A DNA stretch of 32,673 nucleotides from IMG/VR virus record IMGVR_UViG_3300033146_000930, positions 1 to 32,673 of that record. One strand, given 5' to 3'. This document shows, piece by piece, positions 10,263 to 23,103 of the stretch. The notes under the pieces are model-generated. The model searched no databases. It was not told where the DNA came from and saw nothing but the letters and a program-made list of their open reading frames with translations. Position 1 is the stretch's first letter. Every line of letters starts with the position of its first letter. The stretch is from a virus. Position numbers and translations under genes: made by a program.

Positions 10263-10778
10263 TTATATTTTACCTCCTCCACAACGTCTGCCAGTCTTTC
10301 CACCACCACATTTGCTACGAATTAGTCTAGGTGAGTTTTTCTTATTTCTTTTGTAAAGTATACCACCACCTACAAGATCGTCGTCATCATCAGTATCATC
10401 CTCGTCATTGTCTCTATCGGCTAAGTTTTTTAATTTATAGAGTGAATGCATAGATATAGATTTTAACTCATCTATTTCAGCTCCAATATCATTAAATCCT
10501 TTGTCATCGGCGTGCTCCTTCATTTCATCAAGCATAGGAACAAAGTCTTCCTCTAGAAAACTCACAACATCTATATCGCCGTCTGAGTCTTCAACTACAA
10601 TGTCTACGCGACCTCTAGCTAACCTTAATTCTGCTATCTCATCAAATTCATCAAGTATCTCTTCATATAAATCCTGCAGTATTGTGTGCTCAGCCATATT
10701 TTTGGCTTTAAGATGCGCTATATGCAATATATCTCTTGTGCGTAATAATTCTCCTAAAAAGGCCCCGCATTTATTCAT
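10263..10778 (-). CDS. DUF5856-like helical (ferritin-like) protein with tagged basic C-terminus
   Basis: 171 residues. Residues 1-115 form an acidic four-helix pattern (LLRTRDILHIAHLKAKNMAEH, then DLYEEILDEFDEIAEL) like ferritin/Dps-type folds and the phage family annotated as DUF5856. Canonical ferroxidase ligands are not obvious, so iron binding is not claimed. After a run of Asp at 124-134 comes GGGILYKRNKK (137-147), the same tag found in four proteins near 26-30 kb, and then a basic tail with CGGGKTGRRC. It starts a new unit: a promoter-like motif lies 26 nt upstream and an intrinsic terminator lies beyond that. A packaged nucleoprotein or cargo role is plausible but inferred. Confidence 0.6.
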   Translation of the reverse strand: MNKCGAFLGELLRTRDILHIAHLKAKNMAEHTILQDLYEEILDEFDEIAELRLARGRVDIVVEDSDGDIDVVSFLEEDFVPMLDEMKEHADDKGFNDIGAEIDELKSISMHSLYKLKNLADRDNDEDDTDDDDDLVGGGILYKRNKKNSPRLIRSKCGGGKTGRRCGGGKI

Positions 10779-11789: not shown

Positions 11790-11858
11790 TTTGTCCGGCA
11801 TACCAGCTACGTCCGAACGGTTTATATTCAATATACGAAAGGAGCTGGAATCCCCTCC
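11790..11858 (-). ncRNA. Structured RNA element A (hairpin plus pseudoknot) before paralogue 3
   Basis: In the minus-strand sense GTTCGG (11818-11813) pairs with CCGGAC (11798-11793), a 6-bp stem with one G-U and a 14-nt loop. The loop holds AGCTGG (11808-11803), which is complementary to CCAGCT (11848-11843) upstream, so a pseudoknot can form. The hairpin ends 19 nt before the ATG. Element B before paralogue 2 has the same architecture with a different stem sequence. The element could control translation, RNA processing or protein stoichiometry; its mechanism is unknown. Confidence 0.65.
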
Positions 11859-11882
11859 GTTTTATTTTTATTCTTTATCTTG

Positions 11883-13106
11883 TTAAGATATAGTTATTGT
11901 AATTTCATTACTAGCTTCACTAGATTCTCCGGAATTTGATAAAGCATAAACAACCGCTGTAACCTCATCTCCACTAGCCAGTCCTGTCAAAGTATATGTT
12001 CTAGTTGTTGTATCGGCCCCAACAGTAGCTCCATCGTTAATATCCCATTCTATTCTATAAATGTCAGCGAAAGGAATTTCATCCCAAGTATATACTATAG
12101 CATCTACTCCACTCTGAACTCCTGCTAAAGTTGGTACCATAAGTGCTCCAAAGAAATTAGAGCCGTCATCTGCTCCAAGCGAACCATTAGCTAAATACAA
12201 CTCAATAATATTAGGATCTAATGAACCTAAAAAGTCAGGAAGTGTTGCTTCTATTGCTTTAAGTACTTTTTCGTTAATATAAATAACATATCTAGTAGGT
12301 CCTGTTGGAGTAGCAGCATTCACATACTGATGTTTCAAGTACTCATGCCCTGCCCAATCTCCAGAATCTTCAATATCAGCAACTACATAAAAAGTTGCAT
12401 ATTTACCTTCTACATCAATACCTTGGCTGTTACCACCACTTTGTTGTTTATATGGAAGAACATTAAGTCCTGTAGCCATGCGTCTAGATTCTTCTAACCA
12501 ATAGCCTAGTCCCATACCTGTTTGGTGGTCTTGTGAAACTGTAAGATTAAGCTCTACTTTTGCAGGTTTATACTGCAGTGGAGCGTAGGGATTTGTTGGA
12601 TCCGGAATCGATGGTAGTGGGTAAGCCTTCTGTGAAGTTATTTTCTCTACTATTAAGTCTTCACCTTCTAAGGTTATTACTACTGAAAATTTAGTTGGTT
12701 CAAATGAAACCACGTCAACAAACATTTCAGCAGAGTTATACTTTTCTTTAAAATTCTCAAAGCCTTTTGTTACAGCAATAACCATATCCTCAGGTGCTGT
12801 ACCATCTAAAGGAGTCGTTTGAAAAATAATGCGCTCCCCATCAACTATAAAATCTCTGGCGTAATCACTCCTATTTCCTTCTACAGTTTTTAGACTTATT
12901 ACTATATCATAAACAGCACCAGCCTCACCAGCAATAGCATCAACATCTACGATTTGACGTAAACGTGGCTGAGCCCTAAACCCTTTAAAATCTTTAATAG
13001 CCGTAGCGTCCAAAGATATATAGCCAGGAATAGTGATATTATCAGCAGTAATTTGAATTTGCTCTGCAGAATTGAGTACGACCTCTTTATATCCTGTATT
13101 AAACAT
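11883..13106 (-). CDS. MFN.GYKEV paralogue 2 with added C-terminal fibronectin type III-like domain
   Basis: I choose the ATG at 13106 (MFNTGYKEVVLNS), giving 407 residues, because both neighbours begin with the same sequence. The in-frame ATG at 13145 would translate through the structured RNA element. The shared block is at about residues 200-275: YWLEESRRMATGLN, then Q-S-G-G-N-S-Q-G-I-D, then HEYLKHQYVNA and RYVIYINE. Unlike its neighbours it continues past this point. Residues about 323-407 (VYTWDEIPFADIYRIEWDI, TYTLTGLASGDEVTAVVYA, then S-x-E-A-S-N-E-I-T-I) have the Trp, Tyr-Leu-x-x-Leu and strand spacing of fibronectin type III domains, often found on phage surfaces. A surface-exposed variant of the paralogue is likely. 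Confidence 0.7.
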   Translation of the reverse strand: MFNTGYKEVVLNSAEQIQITADNITIPGYISLDATAIKDFKGFRAQPRLRQIVDVDAIAGEAGAVYDIVISLKTVEGNRSDYARDFIVDGERIIFQTTPLDGTAPEDMVIAVTKGFENFKEKYNSAEMFVDVVSFEPTKFSVVITLEGEDLIVEKITSQKAYPLPSIPDPTNPYAPLQYKPAKVELNLTVSQDHQTGMGLGYWLEESRRMATGLNVLPYKQQSGGNSQGIDVEGKYATFYVVADIEDSGDWAGHEYLKHQYVNAATPTGPTRYVIYINEKVLKAIEATLPDFLGSLDPNIIELYLANGSLGADDGSNFFGALMVPTLAGVQSGVDAIVYTWDEIPFADIYRIEWDINDGATVGADTTTRTYTLTGLASGDEVTAVVYALSNSGESSEASNEITITIS

Positions 13107-13120
13107 ATTTTTAATTTTTT

Positions 13121-13186
13121 GCGTTATGCTTACCAGCTGCGGCATAACTCGGTTTATATATTACCGGAGGGCTGGATTCCCCCTTT
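13121..13186 (-). ncRNA. Structured RNA element B (hairpin plus pseudoknot) before paralogue 2
   Basis: In the minus-strand sense GTTATGC (13148-13142) pairs with GCATAAC (13129-13123), a perfect 7-bp stem with a 12-nt loop. The loop contains GCTGG (13137-13133), complementary to CCAGC (13175-13171) upstream. A small CGGT/ACCG hairpin can form between them (13166-13163 with 13153-13150). The hairpin ends 16 nt before the ATG. It shares a GGGG-A-TCCAGC core, TATAAACCG and CAGCTGGTA-like loop segments with element A, while the stem sequence differs. Confidence 0.65.
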
Positions 13187-13194
13187 TAAAATTT

Positions 13195-14040
13195 TTAAGG
13201 TACTGTTGTATCAAACACACTTTTAAAATCTGCATTGTTTGTTCCTGCTGCTAGTACATAAACAACAAACGAGAAATCATTACTAGCCGACGCCTGATTA
13301 ACACCCTTATGATCTACAAACTCATGGTTTAAGGTTTCATCATTTGCAACAGTAAAATAGAACGCATCATATACTCCATCTAATGCAACTCCTGTATCAT
13401 TACCTCCAGTCTGTGGAGCATATGGCCTACTGTTAGGTCCTGTTCCAATTTTTCTAGACTCCTCAATAAATTTTCCAGTAAGATAACCTTCTGATCCTTC
13501 TGTAGTTACTGTCTTTGTCAATCTTTCTAAATCAGAAACAGATGTATTTGTTCTTTCAATAGTTACAAGCTCAATAGATTCTATAATCCAACTTTCATGC
13601 CCAGGATTAATGGTTGTACTAAGTGTCCCTGTTGTAGTGTCTTGTGTAATAGTCAATATTATAGCCTCATCTTCCTTACGATATACTTTATTGTACTTTG
13701 CATATCCAGCAGGAATATCAGTTCCTATAGAATGAAAGTGAATAACTTCTGTAGCCTCTGTTCCAAGATTCCTCAATCTTATCTTTACGTTGTACGGAGA
13801 ACTTCCAAGAGTAGGAGATGACCATGTAGCCATTTCTCCAATAGGACCACTCCCATTTGATTCTGTGTATATGATAGACATATTAAATTCATAATACCCT
13901 TCAATAACTTTTCCAATAGGTATATCAGGATTTACTCCAGGGTCTATAGGGTCTGGCTTATATTGAATAAACACATTAGCATCCTCTCCTGACGTAATAA
14001 CTTTATTAAGTACAACTTCTTTATATCCTAAATTAAACAT
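13195..14040 (-). CDS. MFN.GYKEV paralogue 1, probable virion surface protein
   Basis: 281 residues starting MFNLGYKEVVLNK, 16 nt after the 234-aa connector-type gene. The C-terminal block (about 188-262) is the most diverged of the three: GKFIEESRKIGTGPNS, then P-Q-T-G-G-N-D-T-G-V, then HEFVDHKGVNQ and a FVVYVL strand. The protein ends FKSVFDTTVP, matching the end of paralogue 3 (LMTILDSWIP). The middle region is variable and beta-rich. No structured RNA element precedes this gene, since there is no room, so the element is specific to the junctions inside the cluster. The role is inferred as a virion component from position, relatedness and lack of enzymatic motifs. Confidence 0.7.
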   Translation of the reverse strand: MFNLGYKEVVLNKVITSGEDANVFIQYKPDPIDPGVNPDIPIGKVIEGYYEFNMSIIYTESNGSGPIGEMATWSSPTLGSSPYNVKIRLRNLGTEATEVIHFHSIGTDIPAGYAKYNKVYRKEDEAIILTITQDTTTGTLSTTINPGHESWIIESIELVTIERTNTSVSDLERLTKTVTTEGSEGYLTGKFIEESRKIGTGPNSRPYAPQTGGNDTGVALDGVYDAFYFTVANDETLNHEFVDHKGVNQASASNDFSFVVYVLAAGTNNADFKSVFDTTVP

Positions 14041-15681: not shown

Positions 15682-15710
15682 TTTCTTATTATCTTATTAT
15701 CATTAGCATT

Positions 15711-15750
15711 TAAAAAATATGCCCTCCCTAAAACAACCGAGAGGGCACAT
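15711..15750 (-). terminator. Intrinsic terminator after the major capsid gene
   Basis: In the minus-strand sense ATGTGCCCTC pairs with GAGGGCATAT (10 bp, one G-U) around a 14-nt loop, and the second arm runs into T6. It starts 22 nt after the capsid gene stop. It probably ends or attenuates the highly expressed scaffold-capsid transcript. Confidence 0.85.
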
Positions 15751-15762
15751 ATATTATAAGAA
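15743..15762 (-). promoter_or_regulatory. Candidate phage promoter motif (copy 6), overlapping terminator
   Basis: The minus-strand sense reads TTCTTATAATATATGTGCCC and overlaps the first arm of the capsid terminator. It matches the TTCTTAT plus AT-rich core of the other copies but lacks the final TAG, making it the weakest member. It lies 62 nt before the 302-aa gene. Confidence 0.4.
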
Positions 15763-15771
15763 CTTTATCTA

Positions 15772-17175
15772 TTAGTAAGAAATAGATTCAGTAATAATTG
15801 CAGCTTTATATGGATTAAATATTACAGCAGCAGAGTATCCAAGTAAGTGGTAAGAACTACCATGAACCGAAGTTGCAATAGCTCCAGACTCACGTCCAGT
15901 TTGTCCACCCATACCATTCAATGTTCCACTTAACATCTCAGCTCCGTCAAGAGTGAATGTAGCTAAGTTAGGTCTACCAGTTGAGATATCTGGGCTCATG
16001 TCAATACAGAATCCATAACCGTAGTCTGGGTATTCTTGAGATAATGAACGATCAACAACAAATGAAATAGTATTTCCTTGGAAAGTGTAAGAATCAAACT
16101 GAGCTCCAACTTTTACTTTAGAGTTAGCTTGCTTAGACCAGAAATAAGATCCATCTCCAGGAGATTGGAATCTAAGGTCATTCTTCATAATCTTACCAAT
16201 TTGGTTCCATAATCTCTCGTTTACAACGAAAGCATAAGTGTTTCCGATAGGGCTGTCAGACTTCTCAGTCAATGCAGCTATAATATCTTCTAACAAATCA
16301 GTAGAAAGGATTGAATAAGCGAACTTATCACAATATCTTTCAATCTGTGCGATCACACCATCCCCAATTGGAATATCACGACCTTTTTCATCTTGCATAG
16401 TACACTTACCGTTCACGTCAAAGTTTGACTGTCCGAATAAGATGTGCTGTTCACGAGATACTAAGTAAGAGTCCATACACTCTTTTTCCTTAGTGTTCAT
16501 TTTTGCATATTGATCAGAACCTTTTTTACCGTTTCCAAGATCAATAAATACATCCTCCATCAATGCGAAATCACCTGAGAAGTCAACAGAAGCTCTGTGT
16601 CTTGATAAGTAATTACGGTGAGTTTCAGTGTTAGATATATACTTGATATATCCTCTCTCAGAAAGCTCTGGGTGATAATTAGAACGATAACGTGTAATAC
16701 GTCCTTTAGCTACAAAAGTAGGATCAACCACTTTCGTTGAGTCACTAGATACAAGCATTACTTTATGAAGCCATTTGTTATCCATCTCCTTTTTAGGTGG
16801 AGCTACAACAAATAGTTGCTGTTTGTTTTCAAGCACCATAGTGTCGTTTTTATCGTAGTATTTCTCCTCAAGATAAAGGTTAAATATTCTATTTGTTGGG
16901 CTCTGAACATCAACAATTCTTACCTTCTTGATAAAGTTTACTTTTATGTTCCACTCAATTGTCATTGAGTTAATTGGCGTAAAAGAGTCTCCTCCTTTTT
17001 TCTTTGTATATACGTTACGTAACGCCTCTGTCAAATTTGAAATAGCTAGGTTTGGATACATAGTAACCACCTGCCCCATTTTGTGAGGTTTTCTACCTAA
17101 CAGTGTTCCAAAGTTTTGGACTGTTTTTGTACTAGAAACATTCTCCAAAACTGTGTTTCTGTCTACAATTCTCAT
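15772..17175 (-). CDS. Major capsid protein, crAss-like HK97 fold
   Basis: 467 residues, directly after the scaffold-like gene (29-nt gap) and before a strong terminator, the expected place and expression context for the capsid protein. The N-terminal arm (TVQNFGTLLGRKPHKMGQVV) is followed by a long extended region (MTIEWNIKVNFIKKVRIVD). A conserved middle has MNTKEKECMDSYLVSREQ and VVNERLWNQIGKI. The C-terminus (SSYHLLGYSAAVIFNPYKAA) is the strand-loop signature I recognise at the end of crAss-like capsid proteins. The length is close to the roughly 490 residues usual in the group. Many copies would form the icosahedral shell. The identification is from motif recognition plus synteny. Confidence 0.8.
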   Translation of the reverse strand: MRIVDRNTVLENVSSTKTVQNFGTLLGRKPHKMGQVVTMYPNLAISNLTEALRNVYTKKKGGDSFTPINSMTIEWNIKVNFIKKVRIVDVQSPTNRIFNLYLEEKYYDKNDTMVLENKQQLFVVAPPKKEMDNKWLHKVMLVSSDSTKVVDPTFVAKGRITRYRSNYHPELSERGYIKYISNTETHRNYLSRHRASVDFSGDFALMEDVFIDLGNGKKGSDQYAKMNTKEKECMDSYLVSREQHILFGQSNFDVNGKCTMQDEKGRDIPIGDGVIAQIERYCDKFAYSILSTDLLEDIIAALTEKSDSPIGNTYAFVVNERLWNQIGKIMKNDLRFQSPGDGSYFWSKQANSKVKVGAQFDSYTFQGNTISFVVDRSLSQEYPDYGYGFCIDMSPDISTGRPNLATFTLDGAEMLSGTLNGMGGQTGRESGAIATSVHGSSYHLLGYSAAVIFNPYKAAIITESISY

Positions 17176-22500: not shown

Positions 22501-23103
22501 TTATTTATCTATTTTTGCTATAATGTCCTGCCCGTAGCATACAACATATAGGTTTTTGTCGTTATCTAAGTAAAAGTCAGTCCCCATAAAGGCTTCTATA
22601 ATAACTCTGTCACCTACATTAGCAATTTTATTTTTGCTAGCTATTACCTCTCCATATCTTACATCTTGAGCCGTAGGGTCTTGTTTTAATAGTTCATCAG
22701 GAATGTAAATTCCACCTTTTGTTTTTACTTCTTTTTTATCAAGTTTTATAATAATACGGTCCATTCCAGGATCCATCTTTAACACATCACTCATAACTTT
22801 TAACTCTTTATCACTTTTCAATATAACTCCTGAAGCTGGTATTATTTTTATTTTTTCAGTTTTGTCTTTTGAAGGGACGTGCATTCCAAAATAAATTGAA
22901 ACTACTATTTTGTCTCCAACACTAAATTTAGCATTAGCAGAACTTCTTACTTCTGCATAATACAACTCTCTACCATTATCATACCTATTAGTTGCAGTGT
23001 CAGGCACTACAAGCTTTGAATCGGCGTATACGTTTGGCCAGTGTTTCATAACAATAACTAGGTGGTCATTCTCCGCCTTTAAATCATTTGCATTTATATA
23101 CAT
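22501..23103 (-). CDS. Tandem GroES-like (co-chaperonin fold) protein
   Basis: 200 residues made of two related halves. Residues about 113-200 align well with GroES by eye: MDRIIIKLDKKEVKTKGGIY with the mobile-loop GGI-(Y/V)-(I/L)-P, then YGEVIASKN, VGDRVIIEAFMGTDF and a final VVCYGQDIIAKID. Residues about 12-97 repeat the order more weakly (NDHLVIVMKHW, then LVVPD, AEVRSS, VGDKIVVSIYFG, GVILK). Phage co-chaperonins such as T4 gp31 help the host GroEL fold capsid protein, so this may do the same. A purely structural use of the fold is the alternative, given its place between terminase and portal. A promoter-like motif lies 21 nt upstream. Homology is judged by eye. Confidence 0.65.
   Translation of the reverse strand: MYINANDLKAENDHLVIVMKHWPNVYADSKLVVPDTATNRYDNGRELYYAEVRSSANAKFSVGDKIVVSIYFGMHVPSKDKTEKIKIIPASGVILKSDKELKVMSDVLKMDPGMDRIIIKLDKKEVKTKGGIYIPDELLKQDPTAQDVRYGEVIASKNKIANVGDRVIIEAFMGTDFYLDNDKNLYVVCYGQDIIAKIDK

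Follow-up and report, generated by a model that had tools for sequence, protein, structure and literature searches.

In an uncultured crAss-like phage, two short intergenic segments of the virion gene cluster share a layout, and the question raised by this locus is whether they are copies of one structured RNA and what such an RNA would do for the genes behind it. The stretch of DNA analysed here, referred to as the window, is a 32.7-kb fragment (record G000) that encodes portal, terminase, major capsid protein (MCP) and a CrAss_Ring_2 protein. Three tandem paralogues, all beginning MFN(L/T)GYKEV, lie downstream of the capsid gene. The second and third of these are preceded by an element, and the first (13195-14040) is without one.

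Several other features of the cluster are recorded here. The paralogue at 11883-13106 (minus strand) has an additional C-terminal stretch, seen in neither neighbour, which matches fn3 weakly (E 5.5e-4, below the Pfam cut-off). The gene at 22501-23103 (minus strand), between the portal and terminase genes, encodes a protein of 200 aa whose C-terminal half contains a Cpn10 (GroES) domain. A further gene (10263-10778, minus strand), with a DUF5856-like product (E 3e-7, just under the Pfam cut-off), separates the element gene from that of the ring 2 protein. 3′ of the capsid gene (15682-15771, minus strand) there is a terminator-like inverted repeat, GC-rich and with a T-run, and terminators of this type come after the capsid gene in many relatives.

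Architecture of the two elements

Both elements are present on the minus strand, at the positions and with the parts that a first-pass annotation had given them, i.e., a CCAGC segment, a link and a hairpin whose loop carries GCTGG (Table 1). The link sequence TATAAACCG has just two occurrences in the window. The pattern CCAGC-N15-45-AGCTGG is found in the window only at the two elements, a count reached in 0 of 100 shuffles. The shared architecture is thus upheld, but the upstream CCAGC segment is not free, as had been supposed. It is situated in the 7-nt loop of a second hairpin, P1 (GGGG/CUCC), an additional covarying hairpin that had been overlooked; the stem described in the annotation is termed P2 here.

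The element consists of two hairpins with complementary loops, CCAG and CUGG, and a linker between them that ends in a conserved UAUAAAC. Across copies, P1 has 4-10 bp and a 7-nt loop of the form A-N-N-CCAG, and P2 has 6-9 bp with CUGGU in its loop. The P2 loop is about 10-15 nt long, and no further conserved hairpin is found inside it in the 22 copies. The fold does not stand out when the window alone is considered: single-sequence folding z-scores of the two elements are modest, and a sequence-free descriptor gives 0-5 chance matches per shuffled window. Proof of the fold is comparative.

Table 1. Positions in the window of the virion genes and of the parts of the two elements
Feature	Position	Strand	Remarks
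Major capsid protein (MCP)	15772..17175	-	Anchor for finding relatives
Third paralogue (first of the tandem), without element	13195..14040	-	Start 16 nt past upstream gene
Paralogue under element 2, MFNTGYKEV..., 407 aa	11883..13106	-	Weak C-terminal fn3 match
Gene under element 1, MFNLGYKEV..., 293 aa	10892..11773	-	Probable auxiliary capsid protein family
Element 1, whole (P1 hairpin, linker, P2 hairpin)	11793..11858	-	CM R1 51 bits; 19 nt before ATG 11773
Element 1, P1 hairpin GGAGGGG(ATTCCAG)CTCCTTT	11838..11858	-	CCAG in loop 11851-11845; CCAGC 11848-11844; recovered de novo, covarying across homologues
Element 1, conserved linker TATAAACC	11819..11826	-	TATAAACCG 11826-11818
Element 1, P2 hairpin GTTCGG(ACGTAGCTGGTATG)CCGGAC	11793..11818	-	Stem GTTCGG 11818-11813/CCGGAC 11798-11793; GCTGG 11807-11803; CTGG 11806-11803 complementary to P1 loop
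Element 2, whole	13123..13183	-	CM R1 49.5 bits; 16 nt before ATG 13106
Element 2, P1 hairpin GGGGG(AATCCAG)CCCTC	13167..13183	-	CCAGC 13175-13171
Element 2, conserved linker TATAAACC	13151..13158	-	TATAAACCG 13158-13150
Element 2, P2 hairpin GTTATGC(CGCAGCTGGTAA)GCATAAC	13123..13148	-	Stem GTTATGC 13148-13142/GCATAAC 13129-13123; GCTGG 13137-13133

Copies in related phages

A search for relatives with the paralogue protein alone found none, and the MCP was used as anchor instead, which gave 8, then 11, then 39 loci in viral contigs. There are 22 distinct copies of the element, all in uncultured crAss-like phages that are represented by metagenomic contigs. Each copy is located 15-20 nt 5′ of the start codon of a gene from one family (MFNL/MFTL) downstream of the capsid gene. 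The 16-19 nt that had been noted between hairpin and ATG in the window agree with this (19 nt for element 1 and 16 nt for element 2). The covariance-model search that had been suggested as a check was run, and in related phages it shows homologous elements before homologous genes.

A search pattern made up of P1, the linker and the loop letters returned 11 contigs, and 11/11 were true copies before the same gene family; the list of copies found by pattern is still biased toward CCAG/CUGG. Ten sequences (L038, L041, L043, L044, L045, L047, L048, L050, L051 and L053) were reached by the capsid search and not by the motif, and thus the motif cannot be put down to the query. With a looser motif, the search returned 76 contigs. 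The covariance model (CM) strongly matches ten newly fetched loci from this search, and two more matches are the known elements of the L004/L005 contigs; the remaining ones have a P1 run of 0-1 bp and chance-level CM scores and serve as a natural negative control.

The model, CM R1, was built from 16 sequences and recovers held-out copies, those of L051 (E 4e-10), L053 (8e-9) and L014 (5e-8), and also L001 and both L002 copies. It finds one copy in each carrier contig, except that the window and L002 have two each; no further match at E<0.01 was found in the searched contigs, which are up to 245 kb long. The gut crAss phages MT835470, MT835492, cr4_1 and cr6_1 have no CM match. Two motif matches in cellular genomes were dismissed (no P1, CM E >= 0.6), and so were two matches to a first exact pattern in IMG/VR, which are situated in coding sequence of unrelated phages with no related gene after them and are attributed to chance.

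The element is absent in the relatives L055, L058, L070-L073 and L020. In L055, L058, L070, L071, L073 and the gut phage MT835470, the homologous gene follows its neighbour after about 10-50 nt; in L072, also without the element, the gap is 107 nt. The element is tied to one gene and not to late genes generally.

On the 5′ side, in the window and L003 groups, the element starts 0-24 nt past the stop codon of the upstream gene. P1 itself starts 0-4 nt past that stop codon in L003, L004 and L014, and a terminating ribosome would thus overlap P1. A promoter-like A/T-rich stretch is seen 20-60 nt upstream of the element or P1 in L034, L036, L037, L041, L043, L044 and L050, e.g., ACCCTGG...TTATATTAGTATCATCAC in L034. 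The window and L003 groups are without such a stretch, and their upstream gene ends directly before P1. Open reading frames with GIY-YIG-like starts, as judged by eye, adjoin the element gene in L053 (9169-9891 and 11099-11890) and are also found inside the major capsid gene of L070 (7067-7954), which suggests homing endonucleases or introns in the virion cluster.

Covariation of the stems

The two window elements differ in stem sequence and keep their pairing, which had been read as the mark of selection on RNA structure. The homologues bear this out, with significant covariation in both stems. P1 is found as GGGG/CUCC, as AAAGGGUUCG/CGGGCCCUUU (L041), AAAGGGCUCG/CGGGUCCUUU (L044), GGUUAGG/CUUAGCC (L045), AGGUUUGGG/CUCAGGCCU (L038) and AGGUUGCGG/CUGUGACCU (L050). 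Variants of P2 include GUUCGG/CCGGAC, GUUAUGC/GCAUAAC, GACGCAC/GUGUGUC, GAGUAGUCU/AGGCUAUUC, GUCCUA/UGGGAC and GAUUUUACU/AGUAAGAUC.

In alignment A8, which was aligned by hand to the proposed structure, 82.9% of the paired cells can pair, vs 65.5% when shuffled and at most 54% when slid, and the covariation score is 0.494, a value reached in 0/500 shuffles, vs 0.176 when shuffled and at most 0.258 when slid. Because A8 was fitted to the structure, a MAFFT alignment of 16 sequences was also folded with no structure supplied. RNAalifold recovers both P1 and P2 from this alignment, with both-sided changes in 11 of 13 pairs.

On the tree of the downstream protein there are at least 46 independent both-sided compensatory events, 14 in P1 and 32 in P2. 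A custom tree-based null, in the spirit of R-scape and simpler than it, places stem pairs in all of the top five positions among 2850 column pairs, four of them with E<0.05; when the null is restricted to the 22 proposed pairs, nine pass. G-U pairs in the stems number 53 and A-C mismatches 6, which points to the sense RNA as the constrained strand. Three P2 pairs are broken in the L004 element. On comparative sequence evidence, P1 and P2 are kept by compensatory change, and the element is a conserved structured RNA.

The probable loop-loop contact

The first-pass annotation had the GCTGG loop able to pair with CCAGC. The complementarity exists in all 22 copies; however, CCAG and CUGG are identical in 22/22, and thus covariation is shown for the two stems and not for the contact, where there is a hint at the flanking fifth pair only. 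This hint is the sixth-ranked column pair of the global test (columns 13 and 60, E 0.075), in which the bases preceding CCAG and CUGG are coupled. Copies extend the contact to either ACCAG/CUGGU or CCAGC/GCUGG; L014 shows the latter form in a clade that has the former. Column pair 13/60 and the exact complementarity of two invariant loops favour the pairing of CCAG with CUGG, which is likely to bring the element into a compact kissing-loop or pseudoknot fold. Invariant loops together with freely varying stems would suit an RNA that is recognised by a protein or that packs tightly into a tertiary core.

Identity of the downstream gene

No fitting Pfam or PHROG family was found for the downstream gene, and no RNA-binding domain is recognised in its protein. 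Its place in the virion cluster is that of gp36 of PhicrAss001 (order MCP, gp33, ring proteins, gp36). The gene after the MCP is a gp33 homologue (hhalign 93.6%, E 2e-7), and the next gene, for a ring-like protein, has gp35 and gp34 as its best, though weak, matches (E 0.002-0.004); the element gene follows. Aligned with the gp36 family over 230 columns, the downstream gene gives a weak profile-profile match (E 0.027, probability 1.8%). In PhicrAss001, gp36 is an auxiliary capsid protein present at one per major capsid protein (PMC10172136). Position and the weak profile match thus point to a probable auxiliary capsid (decoration) protein.

Comparison with known RNAs

The whole window and, at E up to 10, the elements alone were compared with Rfam 15. 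None of the matches reached the gathering score, and those to CrcZ, mir-7383 and similar low-score families are chance matches. The initial statement that the element matches no known riboswitch or ribozyme thus stands as far as Rfam is concerned, and no RNA of this kind was found described in the literature searched. The element is a previously uncatalogued RNA.

Closest in topology is the pistol ribozyme (RF02679), in which the loop of the P1 hairpin pairs with a strand enclosed by a second stem and whose anatomy includes P3 and a G-U junction between P2 and P3 (PMC6154101). The order of parts in pistol is P1-loop-P1-AUAAAUA-P2-pseudoknot strand-P3 hairpin-GGU-P2. That of the element is P1-loop-P1-spacer-UAUAAAC-P2-CUGG-P2, and the cutting part is missing. 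In the contigs searched, the pistol CM matches none of the elements; it passes only elsewhere, in the relatives G001/G029, with 74.3 bits against a gathering score of 34.5 (L150:1027-1089, plus strand, and L152; contigs IMGVR_UViG_3300034418_008897 and 3300034374_008812). The G001 pistol is located 21 nt before the AUG of a small open reading frame, about 29 kb from the element. It directly follows an open reading frame that by eye resembles a cytidine/deoxycytidylate deaminase.

Further points of likeness are the phage setting, the position just before an AUG in G001 as well, and the A-rich linker (AUAAAUA in the G001 pistol, UAUAAAC in the element), which is weak evidence in a linker that is A/U-rich. 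In contrast to pistol, the element has no P3 hairpin and no G-U cleavage junction, and its linker is longer and variable. With the cutting part missing, it is not classed as a pistol. That a pistol-type scaffold lost P3 and the cleavage junction and became a protein- or ribosome-sensing translational switch for a capsid auxiliary gene is conceivable but doubtful.

Guanidine-II (mini-ykkC, RF01068) has two kissing-loop hairpins in a translational leader, an arrangement that is probable for the element; its loops are ACGR with C-G contacts, its linker is anti-SD, and the example studied is upstream of sugE (PMC9094411). The element differs in its CCAG/CUGG loops (A-N-N-CCAG, CUGGU), its UAUAAAC linker and its virion gene, and the best matches of the RF01068 CM (E 1.5) cover fragments of 8-10 nt, none of them at the elements. 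A looser parallel is the leader of T4 gene 32, a simple pseudoknot before the gene for a single-strand DNA-binding protein. There too the fold is in a phage mRNA leader and precedes the start of a single abundant protein of the phage, and a structured leader upstream of its own gene's start, as in the T4 operator, is present here. However, the topology of the element differs from that of a simple pseudoknot, and an operator role here is putative.

Possible function of the element

The elements are probably copies of one conserved cis-acting mRNA leader that controls translation initiation of one virion gene. This reading, which draws on sequence comparison, follows from the constant AUG spacing, the linkage to one gene and the unpaired A/U-rich start region, and also from the lack of a terminator and the frequent absence of the element where the gene directly follows its neighbour on a polycistronic message. 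The folded leader would set translation initiation of the single gene downstream. In the simplest form, the fold would present an unstructured A/U-rich start region set apart from the upstream cistron; as a possible switch, it could be bound or opened by a protein, e.g., the gene product, or by a ribosome terminating upstream. Boosting of initiation, insulation from the upstream cistron and reading by a repressor protein may be regarded as alternatives.

The first-pass annotation had the elements setting the ratio of the three paralogues by translation control, RNA cleavage or mRNA stability. The role in a ratio is not supported: the majority of carriers have just one gene copy and one element, and the first paralogue is without an element in both the window and L002. 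Of the three routes, translational control is the best guess, and a pistol-type cleavage site is absent. Other roles were tried and rejected. Pairing of the linker UAUAAAC with an AUGUUUA start is broken in L002 (AUGUUC), L026 (AUGGCU) and L043 (AUGUAU), with the linker kept. TATAAAC as a promoter is ruled out by surrounding stems that covary as RNA, and a transcription terminator by the absence of a U-run after P2.

An autogenous operator, in which translation is repressed once assembly saturates because the leader is bound by the capsid-associated downstream protein or by some other protein of the phage, is rather unlikely. It would agree with a single element per gene, only before one gene family, and with loop letters (A..CCAG and CUGGU) that are invariant while the stems change, as for an RNA read by a protein, and it has a precedent in the T4 gp32 leader pseudoknot (PMC3014915). 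However, the element-free first paralogue, the homologues in other crAss-like phages that are without an element and the lack of a recognised RNA-binding domain count against it. An effect on mRNA processing or stability, in which the fold blocks or directs nucleases and the downstream cistron outlives its neighbours, is unlikely. The intercistronic position and the compact fold are what it would predict, and the constant AUG spacing could also reflect such a role. Yet a fixed distance of 15-20 nt is not needed for it, and P1 and P2 are shorter than the stems of typical RNase III substrates.

Very unlikely is a self-cleaving ribozyme, either a P3-less pistol relative or a new class, that cuts between the upstream and downstream cistrons. 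The pistol-like topology (a P1 loop complementary to a strand that the second stem encloses), the UAUAAA linker and the true pistol of the relative G001/G029 (74 bits), 21 nt from an AUG, point toward it, but the P3 hairpin and the junction with the scissile G-U are absent in 22/22 copies, and neither the pistol CM nor any Rfam ribozyme has a match at the elements. Two hairpins with loop-loop complementarity just 5′ of a start codon also recall a small-molecule riboswitch on kissing loops, like guanidine-II; with no ACGR loops, no significant RF01068 match and a location before a virion gene only and never before genes of metabolism or transport, this is highly improbable. A DNA site, or a chance likeness of duplicated intergenic sequences, is hardly credible. 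The descriptor is not rare if the window alone is judged, but the comparative data contradict this explanation, as the 22 sequences have compensatory changes with sense-strand G-U intermediates.

Implications

To our knowledge, very little has been described of post-transcriptional control in Crassvirales. In their Bacteroidota hosts, translation is initiated largely without Shine-Dalgarno pairing. A covarying leader before one virion gene is a testable handle on how such phages set the amount of a capsid-associated protein. In addition, the topology shared with pistol and the presence of a real pistol in a sister genome make the relation between ribozyme and regulatory leader directly testable. 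If the leader were indeed derived from a pistol, a ribozyme would have evolved into a regulatory leader, and a true pistol would persist elsewhere in a sister genome.
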